Assembly: GCF_000225345.1 (NCBI RefSeq)
Contig: NC_015977.1
Span: 1,037,501-1,101,500, forward strand
Length of the DNA: 64,000 nt
Reading direction: 5' to 3'
Source of the DNA: Roseburia hominis A2-183
GTDB lineage: Bacteria > Bacillota > Clostridia > Lachnospirales > Lachnospiraceae
Notes under the pieces: model-generated
What the model saw: the letters and a program-made list of their open reading frames with translations, nothing else
Told to the model about the DNA's origin: nothing
Database searches by the model: none
Position numbers and translations under genes: made by a program
Shown: positions 2,973-57,846 of the stretch, piece after piece
Layout: every line of letters starts with the position of its first letter
How positions within the stretch are numbered: position 1 is the stretch's first letter

Positions 2973-3056
2973 AAAAAGTTTGTTGGATGATTTCTGTATG
3001 AAGTTTTGAAGGTACAATATACCATTGATTTTTTGTGAGATATCTAGTAAGATAAT

Positions 3057-3085
3057 AAATGACGTATCTGATACGTCATTTTTAT
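3057..3085 (+). terminator. rRNA operon hairpin terminator
   Basis: A perfect 11-bp inverted repeat (AAATGACGTAT / ATACGTCATTT, 3-nt loop, 3057-3081) runs into a T-rich tail. It lies about 85 nt after the 23S 3' end, which leaves no room for a 5S gene. It may be a terminator or a processing hairpin, since tRNA-Trp follows only 10 nt later. Confidence 0.6.
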
Positions 3086-14046: not shown

Positions 14047-17000
14047 ATGTCCAGAGCAAAACAGTCAATGGACGGTAATACAGCGGCAGCTCACGTAGCT
14101 TATGCGTTTACAGATGTTGCAGCTATTTACCCAATTACACCTTCCAGCCCGATGGCAGATACCGTAGATCAGTGGTCTGCAGCAGGACAGGAGAATATTT
14201 TTGGCAATCAGGTCAAAGTCGTAGAGATGGAGTCTGAGGCAGGTGCAGCAGGTGCCGTACACGGTTCCCTTGCAGCAGGTGCGCTGACCACAACCTTTAC
14301 AGCATCTCAGGGTCTGTTACTTATGATCCCGAACATGTACAAAATCGCAGGCGAGCAGCTTCCTTGTGTATTCGACGTATCCGCGCGTACCGTAGCTACC
14401 CAGTCTTTAAATATTTTTGGTGATCACAGCGATGTTTACGCCTGTCGTCAGACCGGTTTCGCTATGCTGTGCGAGACCAACCCGCAGGAAGTTATGGACT
14501 TAAGCCCGGTAGCTCATCTTGCTACAATCGAGGGTAAGGTTCCGTTCATCAACTTCTTCGACGGATTCCGTACTTCCCATGAGATCCAGAAGATCGAGAA
14601 GTGGGATTATGCAGATCTCAAAGAGATGTGCAACATGGATGCAGTTGCAGAGTTCCGTGCACATGCACTGAATCCGGAGCATCCGGCTATGCGTGGTTCC
14701 CACGAGAACGGAGATGTTTTCTTCCAGCATCGTGAGGCTTGCAACACAGCTTACAATGAACTCCCGGCAATCGTTGAGAAGTACATGAAGAAAGTCAACG
14801 AGAAGCTTGGCACAAACTATGATCTGTTCAACTACTACGGAGCACCGGACGCAGAGCGCGTTATCGTAGCTATGGGTTCCATCAACGACGTAGCTGAAGA
14901 GGTAATCGACTACTTAACCGCTAAGGGTGAGAAGGTCGGACTTGTAAAGGTTCGTCTGTATCGTCCGTGGGTATCAGAGGCATTTTTAAAGGCTCTTCCT
15001 AAGACAGCTAAGAAGGTTGCTGTTCTTGACAGAACAAAGGAGCCGGGTGCACTTGGTGATCCGTTATACCTTGATGTTGCAACCACACTCCGTGAGGCTG
15101 GTCTCGACACTGTTGTCCTGACAGGCGGACGTTACGGATTAGGTTCCAAGGATACACCTCCTTCAAGTGTATTCGCTGTATACAAAGAGCTGGAGAAAGA
15201 TGCTCCGAAGGCTCGTTTCACAATCGGTATCGTAGATGATGTTACGAACTTAAGCTTACCAGAGGTTAAGCCGGCTCCGATCACATCTGCAGAAGGTACT
15301 GTAGAGTGTAAGTTCTGGGGTCTCGGCGGTGATGGTACTGTTGGTGCGAACAAGAACTCCACCAAGATCATCGGTGACCACACAGACAAGTACATCCAGG
15401 CATACTTCCAGTATGACTCCAAGAAGACCGGTGGTGTTACCATTTCCCACTTAAGATTCGGTGACAAGCCAATCAGAAGCCCGTACTACATCAACCAGGC
15501 AGACTTCGTTGCATGTCATAACCCGTCTTATGTAACCAAGGGATTCAAGATGGTTCAGGACGTTAAGCCGGGCGGAGTATTCATGATCAACTGCCAGTGG
15601 TCTGATGAAGAGTTAGCTCATCATCTGAATGCAGATGCGAAGAAGTACATCGCAGAGAACAACATTCAGTTATATACAATCAACGCAATCGACAAGGCAA
15701 TCGAGATTGGTATGGGCAAGCGTACCAACACGATCTTACAGTCTGCATTCTTCAAACTTGCAAACGTTATGCCGATCGATCAGGCAGTAGAGTTCATGAA
15801 AGCTGCAGCTAAGAAGTCCTACGGTAAGAAGGGCGACGCAGTTGTAGAGATGAACTACAAGGCAATTGATGCCGGTGTAGACGCAGTACATAAGGTAGAG
15901 GTTCCGGCTTCCTGGAAGAATCCGGAGGCAGACGCAGCTCCTGCAGAGCTTAAGGGTCTTCCGAAGACTGTTAAGATGGTAAGAGACTTAATGGAGCCGA
16001 TCTCCTTAATGGATGGCGATTCCCTTCCGGTATCCGCATTCAAGGAGAACCCGGACGGACAGTTCGAGCTTGGCGCTGCTGCATATGAGAAGCGTGGTAC
16101 AGCCGTAACCGTTCCGACATGGAATGCTGAGAAGTGTATCCAGTGTAACCAGTGTGCATTTGTATGTTCTCATGCAACCATTCGTCCGTTCATGCTGAGC
16201 GAGGATGAGGTGAAGGCAGCTCCTTCCAACATCAAGCTTGCAGATACAAAGCCGAAGGCAAGCGAGTACAAGTACACCATGAGCGTATCTCCGTTAGACT
16301 GTATGGGATGCGGTGAGTGTATCACTGTCTGCCCGGTAGGCGCAATCGAGATGGTTCCGCAGGAGTCTCAGGCAGAAGAGCAGCCGGTATTCGATTACCT
16401 GGTAGCAAACGTAGGCAAGAAGCCTGGCATGCCGGCAGACAACACTGTAAAGGGATCCCAGTTCAACCAGCCGCTGCTTGAGTTCTCTGGTTCCTGTGCA
16501 GGATGTGCTGAGACATCTTACGCTCGTCTGATCACACAGCTGTTCGGTGAGCATATGTACATCAGTAACGCAACCGGATGTTCCTCTATCTGGGGTGGTC
16601 CGGCAGCTACATCACCATATACGGTAAACAAAGATTCCAAGAAGGGACCGGCATGGGCAAACTCCTTATTCGAGGATAACGCTGAGCATGGTCTTGGTAT
16701 GGAAATCGGTCAGAAGGTACTTCGTGAGCAGGCAATCGCTTCTGCAGAGAAGTGCGCAACATCTGACAAGGCAAGCGCTGAGTTAAAGGCAGCATTTGAC
16801 AAGTTCGTTGAGACAAAGAACGATACAAAGGCAAATACTCCTGCAGCAGCAGCTCTTGTAGCAGAGTTAGAGAAGGCAGCAGCAGCCGGATGCCCGGATG
16901 CAAAGGCTGCAGTTGAGAAGAAAGATTACCTCGCTAAGAAGTCCGTATGGATCTTCGGTGGTGACGGTTGGGCATACGATATCGGATTCGGCGGTCTGGA

Positions 17001-17592
17001 TCACGTACTTGCTTCCGGTGAGAACGTAAACGTTATGGTATTCGATACCGAGATGTACTCCAATACAGGTGGTCAGGCTTCCAAGGCTTCCAACATCGGT
17101 GAGGTTTGCCAGTTCGCAGCTTCTGGTAAGGAAGTTGGCAAGAAGAGCCTTGCAGAGATCGCTATGAGCTACGGTTATGTATATGTAGCACAGATCGCTC
17201 TCGGTGCAAACATGGCTCAGGCTGTCAAGGTTATCGCTGAGGCTGAGGCTTACAACGGACCGTCTCTGATCATCGGTTACGCTCCATGTGAGCTGCACGG
17301 TGTAAAGGGTGGTATGAACCACTGCCAGGATGAGATGAAGAAAGCAGTAGCAGCAGGTTACTGGAACCTCTTCTCCTTCAATCCGCAGCTCAAGGCAGAG
17401 GGCAAGAATCCGTTCACTCTGACATCCAAGCCGGGCGACGGTTCTTATCAGGATTTCCTGAACAACGAGACACGTTACAGCCGTCTGACCAGAGCATTCC
17501 CGGAGAGAGCAGAAAGACTGTTCAAGGCTTCCGAGGAAGCTGCAAAGGCTCGTTACGAGCACTTACAGAGACTGGTAGAGCTGTACAAATAA
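14047..17592 (+). CDS. nifJ: pyruvate:ferredoxin (flavodoxin) oxidoreductase
   Basis: 1181 aa, the full length of the single-chain homodimeric enzyme. It oxidises pyruvate with CoA to acetyl-CoA and CO2 and reduces ferredoxin, the central step from glycolysis to butyrate, acetate and H2 in anaerobes. N-terminal pyrimidine-binding domain (AAIYPITPSSPMADTVDQW), the gamma domain, then two [4Fe-4S] ferredoxin motifs (CIQCNQCAFVCSHA near 700 and CMGCGECITVCPVGA near 755), and the TPP domain with SGSCAGCAETSY, NATGCSSIWG and GDGWAYDIGFGGLDH. Codon use is visibly biased towards a restricted set (many GCT, GTT, TCC), unlike its neighbours, as expected of a highly expressed gene. It has its own promoter and terminator. 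Confidence 0.98.
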   Translation: MSRAKQSMDGNTAAAHVAYAFTDVAAIYPITPSSPMADTVDQWSAAGQENIFGNQVKVVEMESEAGAAGAVHGSLAAGALTTTFTASQGLLLMIPNMYKIAGEQLPCVFDVSARTVATQSLNIFGDHSDVYACRQTGFAMLCETNPQEVMDLSPVAHLATIEGKVPFINFFDGFRTSHEIQKIEKWDYADLKEMCNMDAVAEFRAHALNPEHPAMRGSHENGDVFFQHREACNTAYNELPAIVEKYMKKVNEKLGTNYDLFNYYGAPDAERVIVAMGSINDVAEEVIDYLTAKGEKVGLVKVRLYRPWVSEAFLKALPKTAKKVAVLDRTKEPGALGDPLYLDVATTLREAGLDTVVLTGGRYGLGSKDTPPSSVFAVYKELEKDAPKARFTIGIVDDVTNLSLPEVKPAPITSAEGTVECKFWGLGGDGTVGANKNSTKIIGDHTDKYIQAYFQYDSKKTGGVTISHLRFGDKPIRSPYYINQADFVACHNPSYVTKGFKMVQDVKPGGVFMINCQWSDEELAHHLNADAKKYIAENNIQLYTINAIDKAIEIGMGKRTNTILQSAFFKLANVMPIDQAVEFMKAAAKKSYGKKGDAVVEMNYKAIDAGVDAVHKVEVPASWKNPEADAAPAELKGLPKTVKMVRDLMEPISLMDGDSLPVSAFKENPDGQFELGAAAYEKRGTAVTVPTWNAEKCIQCNQCAFVCSHATIRPFMLSEDEVKAAPSNIKLADTKPKASEYKYTMSVSPLDCMGCGECITVCPVGAIEMVPQESQAEEQPVFDYLVANVGKKPGMPADNTVKGSQFNQPLLEFSGSCAGCAETSYARLITQLFGEHMYISNATGCSSIWGGPAATSPYTVNKDSKKGPAWANSLFEDNAEHGLGMEIGQKVLREQAIASAEKCATSDKASAELKAAFDKFVETKNDTKANTPAAAALVAELEKAAAAGCPDAKAAVEKKDYLAKKSVWIFGGDGWAYDIGFGGLDHVLASGENVNVMVFDTEMYSNTGGQASKASNIGEVCQFAASGKEVGKKSLAEIAMSYGYVYVAQIALGANMAQAVKVIAEAEAYNGPSLIIGYAPCELHGVKGGMNHCQDEMKKAVAAGYWNLFSFNPQLKAEGKNPFTLTSKPGDGSYQDFLNNETRYSRLTRAFPERAERLFKASEEAAKARYEHLQRLVELYK

Positions 17593-17625
17593 TCAGTCCG
17601 ATCAGCAGATTGTGTAATGCATAGA

Positions 17626-17665
17626 AGGATCGCAGTTCATGTTTCCATGGACTGCGATTCTTTTT
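17626..17665 (+). terminator. intrinsic terminator after PFOR
   Basis: Stem ATCGCAGT...ACTGCGAT with an inner CATG/CATG pairing, followed by TTCTTTTTG. Confidence 0.85.
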
Positions 17666-17676
17666 GTGCGTTATAC

Positions 17677-17706
17677 TTGCACGTTTGTAATTAGATATGT
17701 TAAAAT
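17677..17706 (+). promoter_or_regulatory. promoter for lipoprotein gene
   Basis: TTGCAC (17677-17682), 18-nt spacer, TAAAAT (17701-17706), 46 nt before the start codon. Confidence 0.5.
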
Positions 17707-17751
17707 AAGCCGAAGTATATTAGACAATAACGTATAGGACAGGAAGAGAAA

Positions 17752-18483
17752 ATGATGCAGTTAAGCAGAGAGAAAAAACATTTTTTGCACTGCAAATACA
17801 GAGTGGCACTGGCATGTCTGACAGCAGTCAGCCTTATTGGCGGCTGCGGATATCATAAAAGCTATCATCTGGAGCGGAAATACGGCGACGTTCTGAAATC
17901 GTTTTTGCCGGACGGGTATGAGATCACAAGGACCGAGAAGGAAGATAAGGTAAACGGAAAACACTATTATACCAGCAATAATCATCCTACTTTAGACGGA
18001 TACGTATACGACACCTATGATTATTACAGCATTGATTACGGATATAACAATTCCCACTCCTGGTATATCAGCACGTATCTGGTCGCAAACGGAACATACG
18101 AGGATGACGACTGGATGGCATCACAGGTATGGGGGCAGATTATCTATGAGATCGAGCGTCTGATACGCAGCACGACAACAACGTATAAGTATGAGGATGA
18201 AAACGGAGACTCCCAGAATTTTGGAGCAGTGTGCACGCTGCATGGAATGGAACTCTACTGTGATATGGATGACCTGGAGATTTTGAATAACCCGACCGGG
18301 ATCAATCTGGCTGAATTTACGTGGGATGATGTGAGAAGTCTCGGTAATCCGGAGATCAAAATGTATGCAAAATCTTCTACTAACAAGGATGCGCTGCAGG
18401 AAGATGTGATTCAGGGTGTGCAGGAAGCGATTCAGGAAGATGCGGGAGATGGAATTGTAATCACAATCGAAGTGGACAGGTAG
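17752..18483 (+). CDS. predicted lipoprotein, function unknown
   Basis: 243 aa. The N-terminus has a basic region, a hydrophobic stretch (VALACLTAVSLIGG) and a lipobox IGGC, so the mature protein should be lipid-anchored at Cys32 on the outer face of the membrane. The remainder is rich in Tyr, Asp and Asn (for example a YDYYSIDYGYNN segment), with an acidic C-terminal part. No known domain is recognised. The start could be either of two adjacent ATG codons after GGAAGAGAAA. It lies upstream of an HD hydrolase, 89 nt apart, and may be co-transcribed. Confidence 0.7.
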   Translation: MMQLSREKKHFLHCKYRVALACLTAVSLIGGCGYHKSYHLERKYGDVLKSFLPDGYEITRTEKEDKVNGKHYYTSNNHPTLDGYVYDTYDYYSIDYGYNNSHSWYISTYLVANGTYEDDDWMASQVWGQIIYEIERLIRSTTTTYKYEDENGDSQNFGAVCTLHGMELYCDMDDLEILNNPTGINLAEFTWDDVRSLGNPEIKMYAKSSTNKDALQEDVIQGVQEAIQEDAGDGIVITIEVDR

Positions 18484-18572
18484 GACTTGAAACAGAGGTG
18501 GTTTTGATCTTGCCATGCAGCCGAATGAGATCCGGTGGTTATCAGATCTGACAGAGGAAGTGTTTAAGGGAA

Positions 18573-19082
18573 ATGGACAGAAAAAAGAAGCGGATTCATT
18601 TGTCAAAAGAGAATGAGAAAGTTTTTCGGGAGATTCTTACGGAGGTATGCAAAAATTCCAGGTTTCTCTCCTCCAGCCGGTTTATGCAGCATGGTTCCAC
18701 GAGCGTATTCCGCCACAGCGTGGCGGTGGCGTACGTCAGTTTTTACATTGCGGAAAAGTATAGAATCCGCGTGAACTGCCATGCGCTGATCCGCGGGGCG
18801 TTACTGCATGACTATTTTCTGTACGACTGGCATGAGAAGGACGATTCCCATAAGTGGCATGGATTTTATCATGCAGGAAAAGCGCTGCAGAATGCGATGG
18901 AAGATTTTGAACTGAGTGAGATTGAGAAGGAGACGATCCGTCGGCATATGTTTCCGCTCAATCCGATTCCGCCGTGCTGCAGGGAGGCATGGATCGTGAC
19001 ACTGGCGGATAAGATCTGCTCCGGCGGGGAGACTGTCGAAGGATTTTGGGAGAAGTTTGAGGAGATTAGGAATCCCTCATAA
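18573..19082 (+). CDS. HD-domain phosphohydrolase
   Basis: 169 aa, soluble. It carries the HD superfamily metal motif: a conserved His in SVFRHSVAVAYVSFYIAEKY, the HD pair in ALLHDYFLYDWHE, and a later His-rich stretch (HGFYHAGKAL...IRRHMFPL) with a final Asp in VTLADKICSGGE. Enzymes of this family hydrolyse phosphate esters, often nucleotides; substrate unknown. RBS AAGGGAA precedes ATG. Its stop codon abuts the outer end of the giant inverted repeat, which overlaps its last bases. Confidence 0.8.
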   Translation: MDRKKKRIHLSKENEKVFREILTEVCKNSRFLSSSRFMQHGSTSVFRHSVAVAYVSFYIAEKYRIRVNCHALIRGALLHDYFLYDWHEKDDSHKWHGFYHAGKALQNAMEDFELSEIEKETIRRHMFPLNPIPPCCREAWIVTLADKICSGGETVEGFWEKFEEIRNPS

Positions 19083-19681
19083 AATAGATTGCCGCAATAA
19101 GCATAGACCTTTTTTGGGTGATAAGTAATATTATGAGAAACGCACTTCGGGATTTCATGTGGAAATGCAGATGGAAATTCGTTTGAGAAAAATGTGAGAA
19201 TTTCTTCCGGCTGAATGTTTGCATCGGATTCCGTGTCTCTTCCACGTTTGGATAATCCGACGGGTGCATGTCCGACACACCGGAGACAATGGGCGGACTT
19301 TCTGGTGTCCCTAATGGCACCTCTTCACAGACGATATAAAACCGCGCGAACCGAAACTCGTTGCCATCTGCTATTAAAAACATGGCAGATGGCAATTCAG
19401 ACATCGGCTTCGCGCGGTTATGTTTTGTTCAGAGGTGCCAATAAGGGACACACACAAAAGTCCTACAAATTGTCTCCGGGATGCGGACATGACCCGCGGA
19501 GTGCTCCAAACTTGGAAAGACACGGATCATCGAAGATGCAAACATTCGGTTGGTTAGAAATTCCACATTTTTTGAACCGAATTTCCGGCTGCATTTCCAT
19601 CTGAAATCCCACGGTGTGGTCCTCTAATAATATTACTTATCAGAGCAAAGCACGCTATGCTTAGTGCGACAGTTCTATTTT
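19081..19681. repeat. giant imperfect inverted repeat (about 600 bp)
   Basis: The whole region between two convergent genes is one long imperfect palindrome. Outer ends: AAAATAGA (19081-19088) against TCTATTTT (19674-19681). A perfect 16-bp block TGATAAGTAATATTAT (19119-19134) pairs with 19627-19642. Matching blocks then continue inward in the same order on both arms: GGGATTTCA, GGAAATGCAG, GGAAATTCG, GAATGTTTGCATC, CCGTGTCT, CATGTCCG, CCGGAGACAAT, GTGTCCCT, GGCACCTCT, CCGCGCGAA. The tip is an 11-bp stem (TTGCCATCTGC 19361-19371 / 19385-19395) with a 13-nt loop. By eye roughly three quarters of positions pair, broken by short internal loops. No transposase and no convincing ORF is inside. It may be a foldback/MITE-like element, a long structured RNA gene, or a double terminator. 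Confidence 0.85.
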
Positions 19682-19712
19682 TTTGGGAGTTTCATCTTCC
19701 GCTGGAATTACA

Positions 19713-19741
19713 CGGGAATTTAGCCTTCCGCTAAATTCCCG
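19713..19741 (-). terminator. hairpin at the end of the ABC exporter operon
   Basis: Inverted repeat CGGGAATTTAG / CTAAATTCCCG (11 bp, 7-nt loop) overlapping the stop codon of the minus-strand ABC gene. No T run follows on the minus strand, so it may protect the 3' end rather than terminate on its own. Confidence 0.4.
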
Positions 19742-21654
19742 GTATACAGCTGATAGTATTTGCCGTGTTTTTCAATCAGCTGATCGTGGCTGCCGCGCTC
19801 GATGACGCGTCCCTGTTCCAGGACAATGATGCAGTCACTGTTGCGCACGGTCGAGAGACGGTGCGCGATCACGAACGTGGTGCGTCCCGCCATCAGCTTA
19901 TCCATACCGTCCTGCACAATCTTTTCGGTGCGGGTATCGATGGAACTTGTCGCTTCGTCCAGAATCAGAACCGGCGGATCGGCGATGGCAGCTCTTGCGA
20001 TGGCAAGCAGCTGACGCTGTCCCTGGCTTAGGTTGGCACCATCGCCGGTCAGCAGGGTGTCATAGCCGTTCGGAAGCTGCTGGATAAATGTATCTGCGTT
20101 GGCGAGTCTGGCAGCTGCCATGACTTCCTCATCTGTGGCATCCAGCTTGCCGTAACGGATATTTTCCATAACCGTAGCCGTGAAAAGATGGGTGTCCTGC
20201 AGCACGATTCCGAGAGAGTGGCGCAGGTCATCTTTTTTGATCTTGTTGATATTGATGCCGTCATAGCGGATCTTGCCGTCCTGGATATCGTAGAAACGGT
20301 TGATCAGGTTGGTGATGGTCGTCTTTCCGGCGCCGGTGCTGCCGACAAAGGCAATTTTCTGACCCGGCGTAGCGTAGAGATCTACGTTGTGAAGAACGGT
20401 CTTCTCTGGAACATAGCCGAAATCGACATCATCAAATACCACGTCGCCCTTTAATTCAATATAATCGATACTGCCGTCTGCCTGATGGGTGTGCTTCCAT
20501 GCCCACATACCCGTACGCTCTTTGGATTCCACAATCTGTCCGTTCTCCTGTCTGGCGCGGACAAGTGTGACGTAGCCGTCGTCCACTTCCGGCTGCTCAT
20601 CGAGCAGAGCGAAGATACGCTCTGATCCGGCGAGTGCCATCACGATATTGTTAAGCTGCATGGAGAGCTGGTTGATCGGCTGCCCGAAGCTCTTATTATA
20701 GGTAAGAAAACTTGCGAGCTTTCCGAGCGTAAATCCGCCATATCCGCCCAGAGCAAGAATACCGCCGACGATCGCGCAGAGCACGTAGCTGATATTACCG
20801 ATCTGTGCATTGACCGGCATTAAAATGTTACCGAACTTATTGGCATTGTCTGCACTGTGGAACAGCTGGTCATTGAGCCGGTTGAAATCGGCGATACTTT
20901 CCTCTTCATGGGTGAAGACCTTGACCACCTTCTGACCGTTCATCATCTCTTCAATGTAGCCGTTGACCGTCGCAATATCTTTCTGCTGTGCGATAAAGTA
21001 GCGGGCACTTAAGGCACCGATCTTCTTTGTGGCAAACAGTGTGACACCGACCATTACAAGTGTGACGAGCGTCAGCGGAATGTTGAGAAGAAGCATACTG
21101 ATAAAGACGCTCACGATGGAGATGATGCTGTTCAAAAACTGCGGCATACTCTGGCTGATCATCTGGCGCAGGGTATCAATATCGTTGGTATAAGTTGACA
21201 TAATGTCTCCATGGGAGTGTGTGTCAAAATACCGGATGGGAAGCTCTTCCATGTGGGTGAACATGTCGTCGCGCAGATGCTTTAAAGTACCCTGTGAGAC
21301 ATTGACCATAATTCTTGTGTATATGTAGGCTGCGATAGCGCCGATGCCGTAGAAGACGGCAACGCGTAAAATGGCGTGTGCGAGACCAGAAAAGTCCGGA
21401 TCGCTCTGCTTCATCAGCGGCAGGATATAGCCGTCGATTAAGGTCTGCATGAACCAGGTTCCCTGCACACTTGCGAGAACCGTGATAAAAATACAGATCA
21501 CGACAATGACGCAGTGTACGGCATAATTTTTCATAATATAGGAAAGCAGGCGCATAAAAAGCTTTCCCGGATTCTTGACATTCGGTCTGGGACCGTGACC
21601 GCCGCGGCCGCCCGGTCCGCCGATCGGCTTTGCATTTTTTTCATTCTGTGGCAT
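19720..21654 (-). CDS. ABC exporter, subunit B (catalytic NBD)
   Basis: 644 aa half-transporter: Gly/Pro-rich start (GGPGGRGGHGPRP), a six-helix membrane domain (about 30-345) and a nucleotide-binding domain (about 400-640). The ATPase motifs are all canonical: Walker A GSTGAGKTT, signature LSQGQRQLLAIARA, Walker B VLILDEATSSID with catalytic Glu, H-loop IAHRLST. Its first codon overlaps the stop of the upstream partner by one base (TGATG), so the two are translationally coupled and form a heterodimer of the multidrug-exporter type (similar in layout to YheHI or LmrCD). An insertion between the two domains (about 360-400, VRARQENGQIVESKERTGMW) is unusual. Control by the divergent MarR protein is likely. 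Confidence 0.9.
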   Translation of the reverse strand: MPQNEKNAKPIGGPGGRGGHGPRPNVKNPGKLFMRLLSYIMKNYAVHCVIVVICIFITVLASVQGTWFMQTLIDGYILPLMKQSDPDFSGLAHAILRVAVFYGIGAIAAYIYTRIMVNVSQGTLKHLRDDMFTHMEELPIRYFDTHSHGDIMSTYTNDIDTLRQMISQSMPQFLNSIISIVSVFISMLLLNIPLTLVTLVMVGVTLFATKKIGALSARYFIAQQKDIATVNGYIEEMMNGQKVVKVFTHEEESIADFNRLNDQLFHSADNANKFGNILMPVNAQIGNISYVLCAIVGGILALGGYGGFTLGKLASFLTYNKSFGQPINQLSMQLNNIVMALAGSERIFALLDEQPEVDDGYVTLVRARQENGQIVESKERTGMWAWKHTHQADGSIDYIELKGDVVFDDVDFGYVPEKTVLHNVDLYATPGQKIAFVGSTGAGKTTITNLINRFYDIQDGKIRYDGININKIKKDDLRHSLGIVLQDTHLFTATVMENIRYGKLDATDEEVMAAARLANADTFIQQLPNGYDTLLTGDGANLSQGQRQLLAIARAAIADPPVLILDEATSSIDTRTEKIVQDGMDKLMAGRTTFVIAHRLSTVRNSDCIIVLEQGRVIERGSHDQLIEKHGKYYQLYTGNLAEG

Positions 21655-23402
21655 CAGGCAGCACCTCCTTCATCAAAATCACCGCCGCCGCCGGTCTGTG
21701 ACTCGTAGACATCGCGGTAAATGGCATTGGTCTGCAATAATTCTTCGTGTGTGCCGAAACCGTTCAACTCTCCGTTATCCAGCACAATGATGCGGTCTGC
21801 ATCCTGAACGGAGGAGATCCGCTGTGCGATAATCAGCTTGGTCGTGTTTGGAATCTCCGTGAGAAAAGCGCGACGGATTTTGGCATCGGTAGCGGTGTCC
21901 ACCGCGCTGGTGCTGTCGTCTAAAATCAGAATCTTCGGCTTCTTTAAGAGCGCGCGGGCAATACACAGACGCTGTTTCTGACCGCCGGAGACGTTGGTTC
22001 CGCCCTGCTCGATGTAGGTGTTGTAACCATCCGGAAAACGCTCGATGAATTCGTCGGCACATGCCAGTTCGCACGCGTGACGGCATTCTTCGTCGGTCGC
22101 ATGTTCATCTCCCCAGCGGAGATTCTCATAGATGGTTCCGGAGAAAAGCACATTGTTCTGCAATACGACAGAGACCTCGTTGCGGAGGGTGTCAAGATCG
22201 TAGGAACGGACGTCTTTTCCGCCGACGAGAACACGGCCTTCGGATACATCGTAGAGACGGCTGATGAGGTTGACGAGCGAGGACTTGGAACTTCCGGTTC
22301 CGCCGATGATACCGATCGTCTCGCCGGATTTTATGGAGAGGTCAATATCGGAGAGCACTGGCTTTGCGGATGTCCTGCTGTAACGGAAGGTCACATGGTC
22401 AAAGGTGATGCTTCCGTCCGGCACGGTCTTATCCGCATTTTCCGGATTGGTGATGTCACTCTTCTCATTTAATACTTCACAGATACGCTCGGCGCTTGCC
22501 ACACTCATGGCCAGCATGACGAACACCATGGACAGCATCATCAGGCTCATCATGATATTCATACAATAGGTAAGAAGACTCATTAGTTCTCCGGTTGTCA
22601 ATGTTCCGCCGACAATCATTTTTGCGCCCACCCAGCTGATCGCAAGAATACAGCTGTAAACGGTGATCTGCATGACCGGGTTGTTGAAAGCCAGAATGCT
22701 TTCCGCCTTGACAAACATGTTGTAAATATTCTGGCTGGCTTTGCGGAACTTGTTTTTCTCGTAATCTTCACGCACATAAGCCTTGACCACGCGGATGGCG
22801 GATACGTTTTCCTGCACGGAGGCATTTAGGTCATCGTACTTTGGAAAAACTTCCATAAAATAGTGATGCGCGCGCACGGTGATGATGGCGAGAATGATGC
22901 CCAGAATGATGACGGCAACAAGATAGATGCTCGCCAGTCTCGGGCTGATGAAAAACGCCATGCACATCGCGCAGATCAGACTGATCGGCGCACGCACACA
23001 CATGCGCAGCAGCATCTGGTAGGCATTCTGCAGGTTGGTCACATCTGTGGTCAGACGGGTGACAAGACCTGCGGTACTGAATTTGTCGATGTTGGAAAAC
23101 GAAAAACTCTGGATGTTCTCGTACATCGCTTTTCTTAAGTTACGTGCAAAACCTGCGGAGGCTCTTGCACCGTATTTTCCGCCCATGACACCGCAGAAGA
23201 GGGAGAAACAGGCGGCGACAACCATCCAGGCACCCATGACGTAGATATGGTGGATGTTGCCCGCTTCCACACCCTGATCGATAATGGAAGCCATCATCAG
23301 AGGAATGATTGTTTCCATGAAGACTTCCAGAATCATGAAGACGGGAGTAAGCAGGGAATCTTTTTTGAACTCCCTGATCTGTGCTCCAAGTGTTTTTAAC
23401 AT
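21654..23402 (-). CDS. ABC exporter, subunit A (degenerate NBD)
   Basis: 582 aa: six-helix membrane domain (about 15-310) and nucleotide-binding domain (about 340-575). Its catalytic motifs deviate: Walker A GGTGSSKSS (Ser before Lys), Walker B ILILDDSTSAVD with Asp in place of the catalytic Glu, and H-loop AQRIS with Gln in place of His. The signature VSGGQKQRL is intact. This is the usual asymmetry of heterodimeric exporters, in which one ATP site binds but hardly hydrolyses ATP. It is the first gene of the operon, directly behind the MarR-type operator and promoter, and is probably a multidrug or toxic-peptide efflux subunit. Confidence 0.9.
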   Translation of the reverse strand: MLKTLGAQIREFKKDSLLTPVFMILEVFMETIIPLMMASIIDQGVEAGNIHHIYVMGAWMVVAACFSLFCGVMGGKYGARASAGFARNLRKAMYENIQSFSFSNIDKFSTAGLVTRLTTDVTNLQNAYQMLLRMCVRAPISLICAMCMAFFISPRLASIYLVAVIILGIILAIITVRAHHYFMEVFPKYDDLNASVQENVSAIRVVKAYVREDYEKNKFRKASQNIYNMFVKAESILAFNNPVMQITVYSCILAISWVGAKMIVGGTLTTGELMSLLTYCMNIMMSLMMLSMVFVMLAMSVASAERICEVLNEKSDITNPENADKTVPDGSITFDHVTFRYSRTSAKPVLSDIDLSIKSGETIGIIGGTGSSKSSLVNLISRLYDVSEGRVLVGGKDVRSYDLDTLRNEVSVVLQNNVLFSGTIYENLRWGDEHATDEECRHACELACADEFIERFPDGYNTYIEQGGTNVSGGQKQRLCIARALLKKPKILILDDSTSAVDTATDAKIRRAFLTEIPNTTKLIIAQRISSVQDADRIIVLDNGELNGFGTHEELLQTNAIYRDVYESQTGGGGDFDEGGAA

Positions 23403-52050: not shown

Positions 52051-52067
52051 ATCAAATTATAAAAAAC

Positions 52068-52115
52068 AAAGGGTGTAAAGTCTTTATTGAGAGATTGAGA
52101 CGTTACACCCTTTTT
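52068..52115 (+). terminator. terminator of the heat-shock operon
   Basis: Stem AAAGGGTGTAA / TTACACCCTTT with a long loop, followed by TTCTTTG. Also usable by the convergent luxS on the other strand, since the other arm begins with A-rich sequence. Confidence 0.75.
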
Positions 52116-52128
52116 CTTTGATAAGATT

Positions 52129-57555: not shown

Positions 57556-57585
57556 TAAAGTTATCATATATGATAACTTTTGTCA
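57556..57585 (-). promoter_or_regulatory. promoter and palindromic operator of XRE pair
   Basis: A perfect 24-bp palindrome (57556-57579): AAAGTTATC, centre ATATAT, GATAACTTT. On the minus strand TTGACA (57585-57580) is followed by a 17-nt spacer and TAACTT (57562-57557), so the palindrome covers the spacer and -10 completely. This is the expected site for autorepression by the XRE protein. Confidence 0.75.
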
Positions 57586-57797: not shown

Positions 57798-57846
57798 AGC
57801 ATACAAAAGGAGCTGTGAATATCATTCACAGCTCCTTTTGTATGCT
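57798..57846 (+). terminator. 23-bp perfect hairpin after tRNA-Leu
   Basis: Two perfectly complementary 23-nt arms with a 3-nt loop (ATC). The inner AAAAGGAGC/GCTCCTTTT part acts as the terminator in either direction; it also lies downstream of the convergent hemerythrin gene. Confidence 0.8.

Follow-up and report, generated by a model that had tools for sequence, protein, structure and literature searches.

A family of long foldback elements at gene ends of Roseburia hominis A2-183, with co-evolving arms and conserved internal loops

Locus and foldback structure

The window analysed here is a stretch of 64,000 nucleotides from the genome of Roseburia hominis A2-183 (contig NC_015977.1, positions 1,037,501 to 1,101,500); the genome, designated G000, is represented by one contig (C1) of 3,592,125 bp. 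Within the window, the gap between two convergent genes, for an HD-domain protein and an ABC transporter, is filled by an imperfect foldback of about 600 bp (19081-19681), as an earlier note on this DNA had described; its left end overlaps the TAA stop codon (19080-19082) of the HD-domain open reading frame (18573-19082). The features of the locus are as follows.

18573..19082, plus strand: HD-domain protein gene, upstream convergent neighbour (Pfam PF01966, E 3.8e-9)
19081..19681, no strand assigned: whole foldback element, one of at least 77 genome copies (self-alignment and genome searches)
19081..19106, no strand assigned: left outer terminator-like half-stem, A-tract followed by TTGCCGCAATAAGCATAG (by eye)
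19119..19134, no strand assigned: left member of the perfect 16-bp pair: TGATAAGTAATATTAT, which recurs identically or with small differences in many copies
19135..19320, no strand assigned: left middle rod, with the cross-species loop motifs AAAAATG..AATTTC, TTCCGTGTCT, GAGACAA, CTTTCTGG and CTAA (alignment of 16 sequences from 8 genomes)
19321..19434, plus strand: tip domain, corresponding to the match of covariance model R1 (hit G000:C1:1056821-1056934; covariation)
19342..19417, no strand assigned: GC-rich tip hairpin of 76 nt between ATAAAA and TTAT
19354..19360, plus strand: AAACTCG, the left-hand part of a conserved asymmetric internal loop, of which TTCAGACATC (19396-19405) is the right-hand part
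19435..19626, no strand assigned: right middle rod, with the cross-species loop motifs ATAAGG, CACAAAAGT, TTGTCT, GAAAGACACGGATCAT and TTAGAAAT (alignment of 16 sequences from 8 genomes)
19627..19642, no strand assigned: right member of the 16-bp pair
19655..19684, no strand assigned: right outer half-stem CTATGCTTAGTGCGACAGTTCTA with T-tract (by eye)
19720..21654, minus strand: ABC transporter gene, the other convergent neighbour (Pfam PF00664 and PF00005)

The two arms share 75.4% of their positions in a self-alignment of 629 columns (E 1.6e-80), above the 55% below which the earlier note would have given up the claim of a foldback, and the predicted RNA fold of 19075-19690 has an energy of -342.7 kcal/mol, compared with -165.9 +/- 7.5 in 20 shuffles (z -23). 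The foldback is thus real, and the perfect 16-bp pair lies exactly where it had been reported. A chance or single-copy foldback is excluded by this fold and by the copies found throughout the genome. Other inverted repeats of the window (those listed within 2.5 kb) measure 24-68 bp and are far shorter than the foldback; among them are those at 57798-57846, 57557-57580, 3052-3085 and 52057-52124.

The two longest open reading frames of the gap (129 and 112 amino acids) carry no Pfam domain. A protein-coding role was rejected on this ground and because the copies vary by insertions and deletions; the alignment of 58 of 59 copies spans 759 columns for about 600 bases. No Rfam family was matched in positions 17000-22000 of the window, and a terminator scan of the gap, in which a loop limit of 8 excludes the foldback, listed no site.

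Anatomy of the element

From the outside inwards, many copies share the same order of parts, i.e. an A-tract, an outer stem, TGATAAGTAATATTAT or a variant of it, the middle rod, and finally the tip domain (about 170 nt). The outer stem, often GG(G/A)(A/G)(C/T)TG(T/C)CGCA, resembles an intrinsic terminator. The outer stems vary among loci, yet the two ends of one copy match each other: private outer stems were recognized by eye in copies L110, L056, L055 and L081, and both ends of L081, and of L221 from another species, carry an entire terminator in inverted orientation. Copy ends were read by eye, and the alignment of the arms overran in many copies.

Intrinsic terminators, the stem of which is about 10 bp, share with the element the A-tract, stem and T-tract and the position at gene ends and convergent sites; the stem of the element, in contrast, is nearly 300 bp long, repeated in the genome, and interrupted by conserved internal loops. 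A function as bidirectional terminator, one of four identities proposed before, is likely to be part of the anatomy, as predicted from the A- and T-tracts at the ends of many copies, the convergent sites, and the plain terminators in three relatives described below.

Extra small hairpins are located within the right arm in L012 and, in genome G010, in L215 and L222; L013 and L017 are lengthened in the same way as L012. A plain terminator, AAAAAGAAGGGGCTGCCGCATGAAACGGGCTGCCCCTTCTTTTTT, is found at about position 4535 of L288 (G000:C1:1980001-2000000), and its start is the same as that of many outer stems of the element.

Copies in the genome of R. hominis

The genome contains at least 77 copies of the element, several of them truncated. 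DNA searches yielded 59 copies, and a further 18 were added by an 18-nt pattern of the tip (up to 2 mismatches), which is found at 76 places (42 forward, 34 reverse; none for the reversed pattern as control); copy L023, among the 59, lacks the pattern. Identity of a copy to its nearest other copy is 76-97%, with a median of 93% (over at least 350 bp; 72 of the 77 copies scored). A single copy with no covariation, the outcome that had been set against mobile and RNA models, is excluded by these copies and by the strong covariation described below.

By a rough gene call, based on the longest open frames on each side, the neighbouring genes are convergent at 42 copies, tandem at 33 and divergent at two; promoters hence seem to be avoided. 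Among the tandem copies, the plus strand of the element is opposed to the direction of transcription in 24 and follows it in nine; the orientations are spread nearly evenly over the two halves of the genome (22, 19, 20 and 16). Neighbouring copies are spaced 3.2 to 187 kb apart, with a median of 32.8 kb.

Some further remnants and repeats were observed. Beyond the 77 copies there are tipless remnants in L167, L168 and L169, of which L167 and L168 (G000:C1 from 810300 and 987900) are short foldbacks with the element ends and no tip, a form that would result from loss of the palindrome centre. One copy (L120/L172; G000:C1 1987957-1990061) is split by about 1.5 kb, in which an open reading frame looks like a putative IS110-type transposase gene, judged by its sequence. 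A second repeat family, GATATAATGAATC..GATTCATATTAGAAGTTCCTGCGGAACTTC, is found in L167, L169 and L170 (G000:C1 from 810300, 2288500 and 3171700); it is repeated in tandem in L167 and, in L169, follows closely on a truncated left arm of the foldback. With up to 5 mismatches it has no match in the window.

Relatives in other genomes

The HD protein is 80-81% identical to its named relatives from Roseburia. The whole element has no DNA match among 59 relatives, and its core matches four other genomes of the genus with 67-78% identity. The covariance model of the tip (R1) has matches in nine of 62 genomes of the genus, R. hominis included: at least 60 in G000, 14 in G073, 12 in G062, seven each in G077 and G010, six in G070, three in G028, and one each in G082 and G020, those in G028 and G020 being weak (E about 1e-3). 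A broader model (R2), for which nine candidates were scored per genome, has matches in four of 392 genomes of the order (G000, G070, G368 and G401); two of these belong to other genera of the family, G368 with at least five matches and G401 with one weak match. The tip pattern was found neither in genome_contigs nor in IMG/VR, from both of which near records are possibly left out, and an origin from a plasmid or phage was rejected, there being no match among plasmids or phages.

In an alignment of 16 copies from eight genomes (about 490 columns), a common succession of short motifs, present in 70% or more of the rows, runs along both arms, and the helices between them are replaced. The kept motifs include AAAAT, ATTT, CGTGTCT, AGACA, CTAG, CTA, ATAAAA and AACTCG in the left arm, and TCA.ACA, TTA.GTTTTG, AAG, CAC.AAA, TGT, AAAGACACG.AT.AT and TA.AAAT in the right arm; the same series was recognized by eye in G368, which belongs to another genus. 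Between species, helices are swapped and remain complementary while the sequences of the internal loops are conserved, and this conservation implies a partner that reads sequence. The surprise of the finding lies in a rod that keeps its loops while its helices are exchanged. A fossil of two opposed element copies, as also proposed for this foldback, does not explain a shared rod with conserved internal loops across eight genomes.

The elements seemingly represent an undescribed family that extends within the Lachnospiraceae. No description of such an element was found in the literature covered, outside of which lie most subscription papers.

Covariation of the arms

Pairing is conserved through change on both sides. 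In the cross-species alignment of the rod, 148 pairs were found on both strands, and 80% of the cells are Watson-Crick pairs, against 25-32% when the pairs are slid. In the cross-species alignment of the tip (A1; 28 sequences from five genomes, L012 with an insertion and L023 with a rewritten arm being left out of the 30 extracted), both sides have changed in 44 of 63 pairs, and pairing holds in 92.6% of the cells, against 35-41% for slid pairs. Within R. hominis, eight truncated or interrupted copies (L105, L113, L119, L120, L121, L122, L123 and L127) were dropped before covariation, wobble and pairing were counted. On a tree of the remaining 69 of 77 copies, double Watson-Crick changes on the same branch number 312 at true pairs and 17-44 at slid pairs; the median pairing observed is 0.86, against 0.74 expected for independent arms. 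On the branches, double changes lie next to each other more often than by chance (57 neighbouring, and 31.5 +/- 4.4 when shuffled).

If pairing acted in the RNA of one strand, G-U intermediates should outnumber A-C. Within the genome, 230 strand-neutral pairs give 396 G-U and 353 A-C; the sense strand, counted in 30 tandem copies, gives 251 and 242, and the rod aligned across species 109 and 93. When the rod is divided into seven bins, a preference for G-U on the plus strand is seen in one, 160-200 nt from the tip (46 to 20, p 0.002). The cross-species tip (five genomes) shows 72 A-C against 33 G-U, a balance that would speak for the minus strand.

These counts bear on the undescribed structured RNA that had been considered for this locus, i.e. 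a long-rod RNA as the functional product, the pairing of which would be selected and the loops of which would bind a protein. The massive covariation, the conserved loop sequences, the orientation bias of the tandem copies and the wobble balance of the tip would fit such an RNA; however, G-U and A-C are about equal in the first three comparisons, and no Rfam family is matched (a search with six loci gave four matches to miRNA precursors, all far below gathering scores). The proposal is weakened by this near-equality within the genome, and we regard it as unlikely.

Arm-to-arm copying and concerted evolution

Several copies show one arm rewritten from the other. In the tip of L023 the right arm complements the left one exactly, as one tip arm does the other in L255 of G368, and in both the conserved asymmetric loop is gone. 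In L123, sequence of the right arm is carried by the left arm. Template switching between arms can create and maintain hairpins, according to PMC8794818, and has in common with the present case the matched changes of several bases and the correction of one arm by the other. It would explain the pairing of the element without selection on RNA. That work treats RNA genes, however; here template switching would act on a dispersed 600-bp repeat, the conserved loops of which resist it. Given that G-U is not favoured and that arms are copied from each other, pairing of the element looks to be at the level of DNA.

Mean tip identity is 0.82-0.84 within species and 0.55-0.75 between species, and among the R. 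hominis copies, with the same eight left out, mean identity is 0.91 at the tip and declines to 0.55 at the ends. At four of 14 loci in other species a flanking gene matches the flank of an R. hominis copy, on both sides for L182-L079, L185-L009 and L180-L123 and on one side for L176-L020; weaker flank matches were seen for L183-L029 (54 residues) and L174-L012 (53%). The orthologous pair L079/L182 is 0.65 alike, no more than other cross-species pairs. Shared flanks together with likeness within species indicate that some gene ends seem to be long-term carriers, the sequences of which are renewed in each species.

Immobile repeats that serve the host, as two-way terminators or as hairpins that organise the chromosome, and that are spread and homogenised by recombination between copies only, would account for the shared flanks, for tips more alike within than between species, as in concerted evolution, and for the gradient from tip to ends; cleavage of hairpins by SbcCD is a possible trigger of such recombination. 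Two observations described below speak against immobility, namely a nested copy, which together with the unequal copy numbers suggests that copies reach new places, and the plain terminator in three of the four relatives that keep the HD-ABC site. We consider immobile repeats a rather improbable explanation.

Proposed movement by replacement

Mobility of the element is suggested by a nested copy (G000:C1:96811-97403), in which 593 bp are found inside an older copy and replace its 76-nt tip hairpin, with ATAAAA and TTAT left in place; the nested copy is 94.6% identical to L053 (positions 1-591). This is the single case of replacement seen, and the lost tip of the older copy was inferred from intact copies. 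At the HD locus, four of ten loci in relatives keep the ABC gene beside the HD gene; a plain terminator occupies this site in L132, L138 and L140, and another foldback, of about 175 bp, in L135. The plain terminators fit a replacement of hairpins, though they do not constitute a before/after pair.

The search for target duplications, proposed as a check, was negative for lengths of 3-9 bp in all 18 anchorable copies (of 77), with one 2-bp match. Bacterial MITEs and foldback elements are short and non-coding, have inverted ends and occur in many copies, and a MITE mobilised by a DDE transposase would suit the inverted ends, the many copies and the lack of a Pfam domain in the present element. 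An ordinary MITE of this kind, with target duplication, is nevertheless highly doubtful: no duplication was found in the anchored copies, and the ends of several copies are locus-specific stems. The present element further differs from known MITEs and foldback elements in that a hairpin is replaced, the arms co-evolve over 600 bp, and helices are exchanged between species with the loops kept. Of the foldback MITE suggested by the earlier note, the mobile foldback is thus the best supported of its four candidates (at least 77 copies, clean nested replacement), and the ordinary MITE is not supported (no target duplication in the 18 anchorable copies, no transposase known).

The nested replacement resembles the transposition of IS1272 (IS1182 family), which is reported to replace inverted repeats of 21-85 bp and to leave no target duplication (PMC5678879). 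The analogy is close; in both cases a stem-loop (here the site of the 76-nt hairpin) is replaced by an element with terminal inverted repeats and no target duplication. IS1272, unlike the present element, encodes a transposase; the latter encodes none, and is a single long foldback with conserved internal loops.

Candidate enzymes were sought in 864 kb (24%) of the R. hominis genome. One motif of IS1182-type enzymes had no match in the 193 open reading frames of 380-640 amino acids in this part, and no DDE transposase was recognized among 10 of 11 basic open reading frames scanned there. Inverted end pairs were not detected in the same 864 kb by a test that also missed the known copies there.

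REPINs are about 100 bp in size. They and REP sequences are, like the present element, intergenic hairpins with many diverged copies per genome (PMC3116915), and their palindrome of 20-40 bp carries a GTAG or CGTC tag at one end (PMC3733652). A REPIN-like element, on the single-stranded hairpins of which a Y1 transposase (RAYT or IS200-type) would act, accords with these features and with the presence of PF01797 (Y1) proteins in the carriers G000, G070, G020 and G028, among 22 of 62 genomes. PF01797 was, however, not found in the five carriers G077, G073, G082, G062 (84% complete) and G010 (83% complete), and at 600 bp the present element is several times longer and forms a rod with conserved internal loops. 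On this presence pattern, in which Y1 transposases do not track the element, a REPIN/RAYT system was rejected, and we consider it very improbable.

Interpretation

With moderate confidence we favour the reading that the repeats represent a non-autonomous foldback DNA element, about 600 bp long in R. hominis, that replaces terminator hairpins and the shape of which is maintained in DNA. The observations on which it is based are dispersed copies at gene ends, co-evolving arms, conserved loops, copying between arms, one nested replacement, and the absence of target duplications in testable copies.

For the proposed mechanism, the element would move by replacing stem-loops, usually intrinsic terminators, and once inserted would itself serve as a two-way terminator, so that insertion would be cheap for the host. 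Pairing would matter in DNA, in that a recombinase may recognise the hairpin or cruciform via the conserved loops, and template switching between arms during replication may keep the arms matched. For its movement the element would depend on an enzyme provided in trans, with an IS1182-type (IS1272-like) transposase as the leading candidate, because such an element has been reported to replace inverted repeats without target duplication. As counterpoints, the A-C excess in the tip (72 to 33) and the orientation bias of tandem copies (24 to 9) would fit an RNA of the minus strand.

A more far-reaching reading is offered tentatively, as a possibility that we would not yet bet on: mobile DNA of a new class, the identity of which is a shape, i.e. 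a cruciform-forming rod of 600 bp in which only the internal loops are read as sequence and the helices change in step. Its movement would swap hairpins and so give a self-replacing terminator, homogenised in each species from the tip outwards.

Biological significance

The finding is larger than could be seen from the window, in that the foldback is one of at least 77 copies in the genome of a gut bacterium, located mostly at gene ends. If the favoured reading is true, the family combines strong covariation, commonly taken to prove a functional RNA, with no general preference for G-U, and would therefore allow a natural test of whether template switching causes covariation. Hairpin-replacing transposition would extend from an insertion sequence to a non-coding element that occupies terminators, and a gut genus would gain dozens of long hairpins that are predicted to break, to recombine, and to end transcription.
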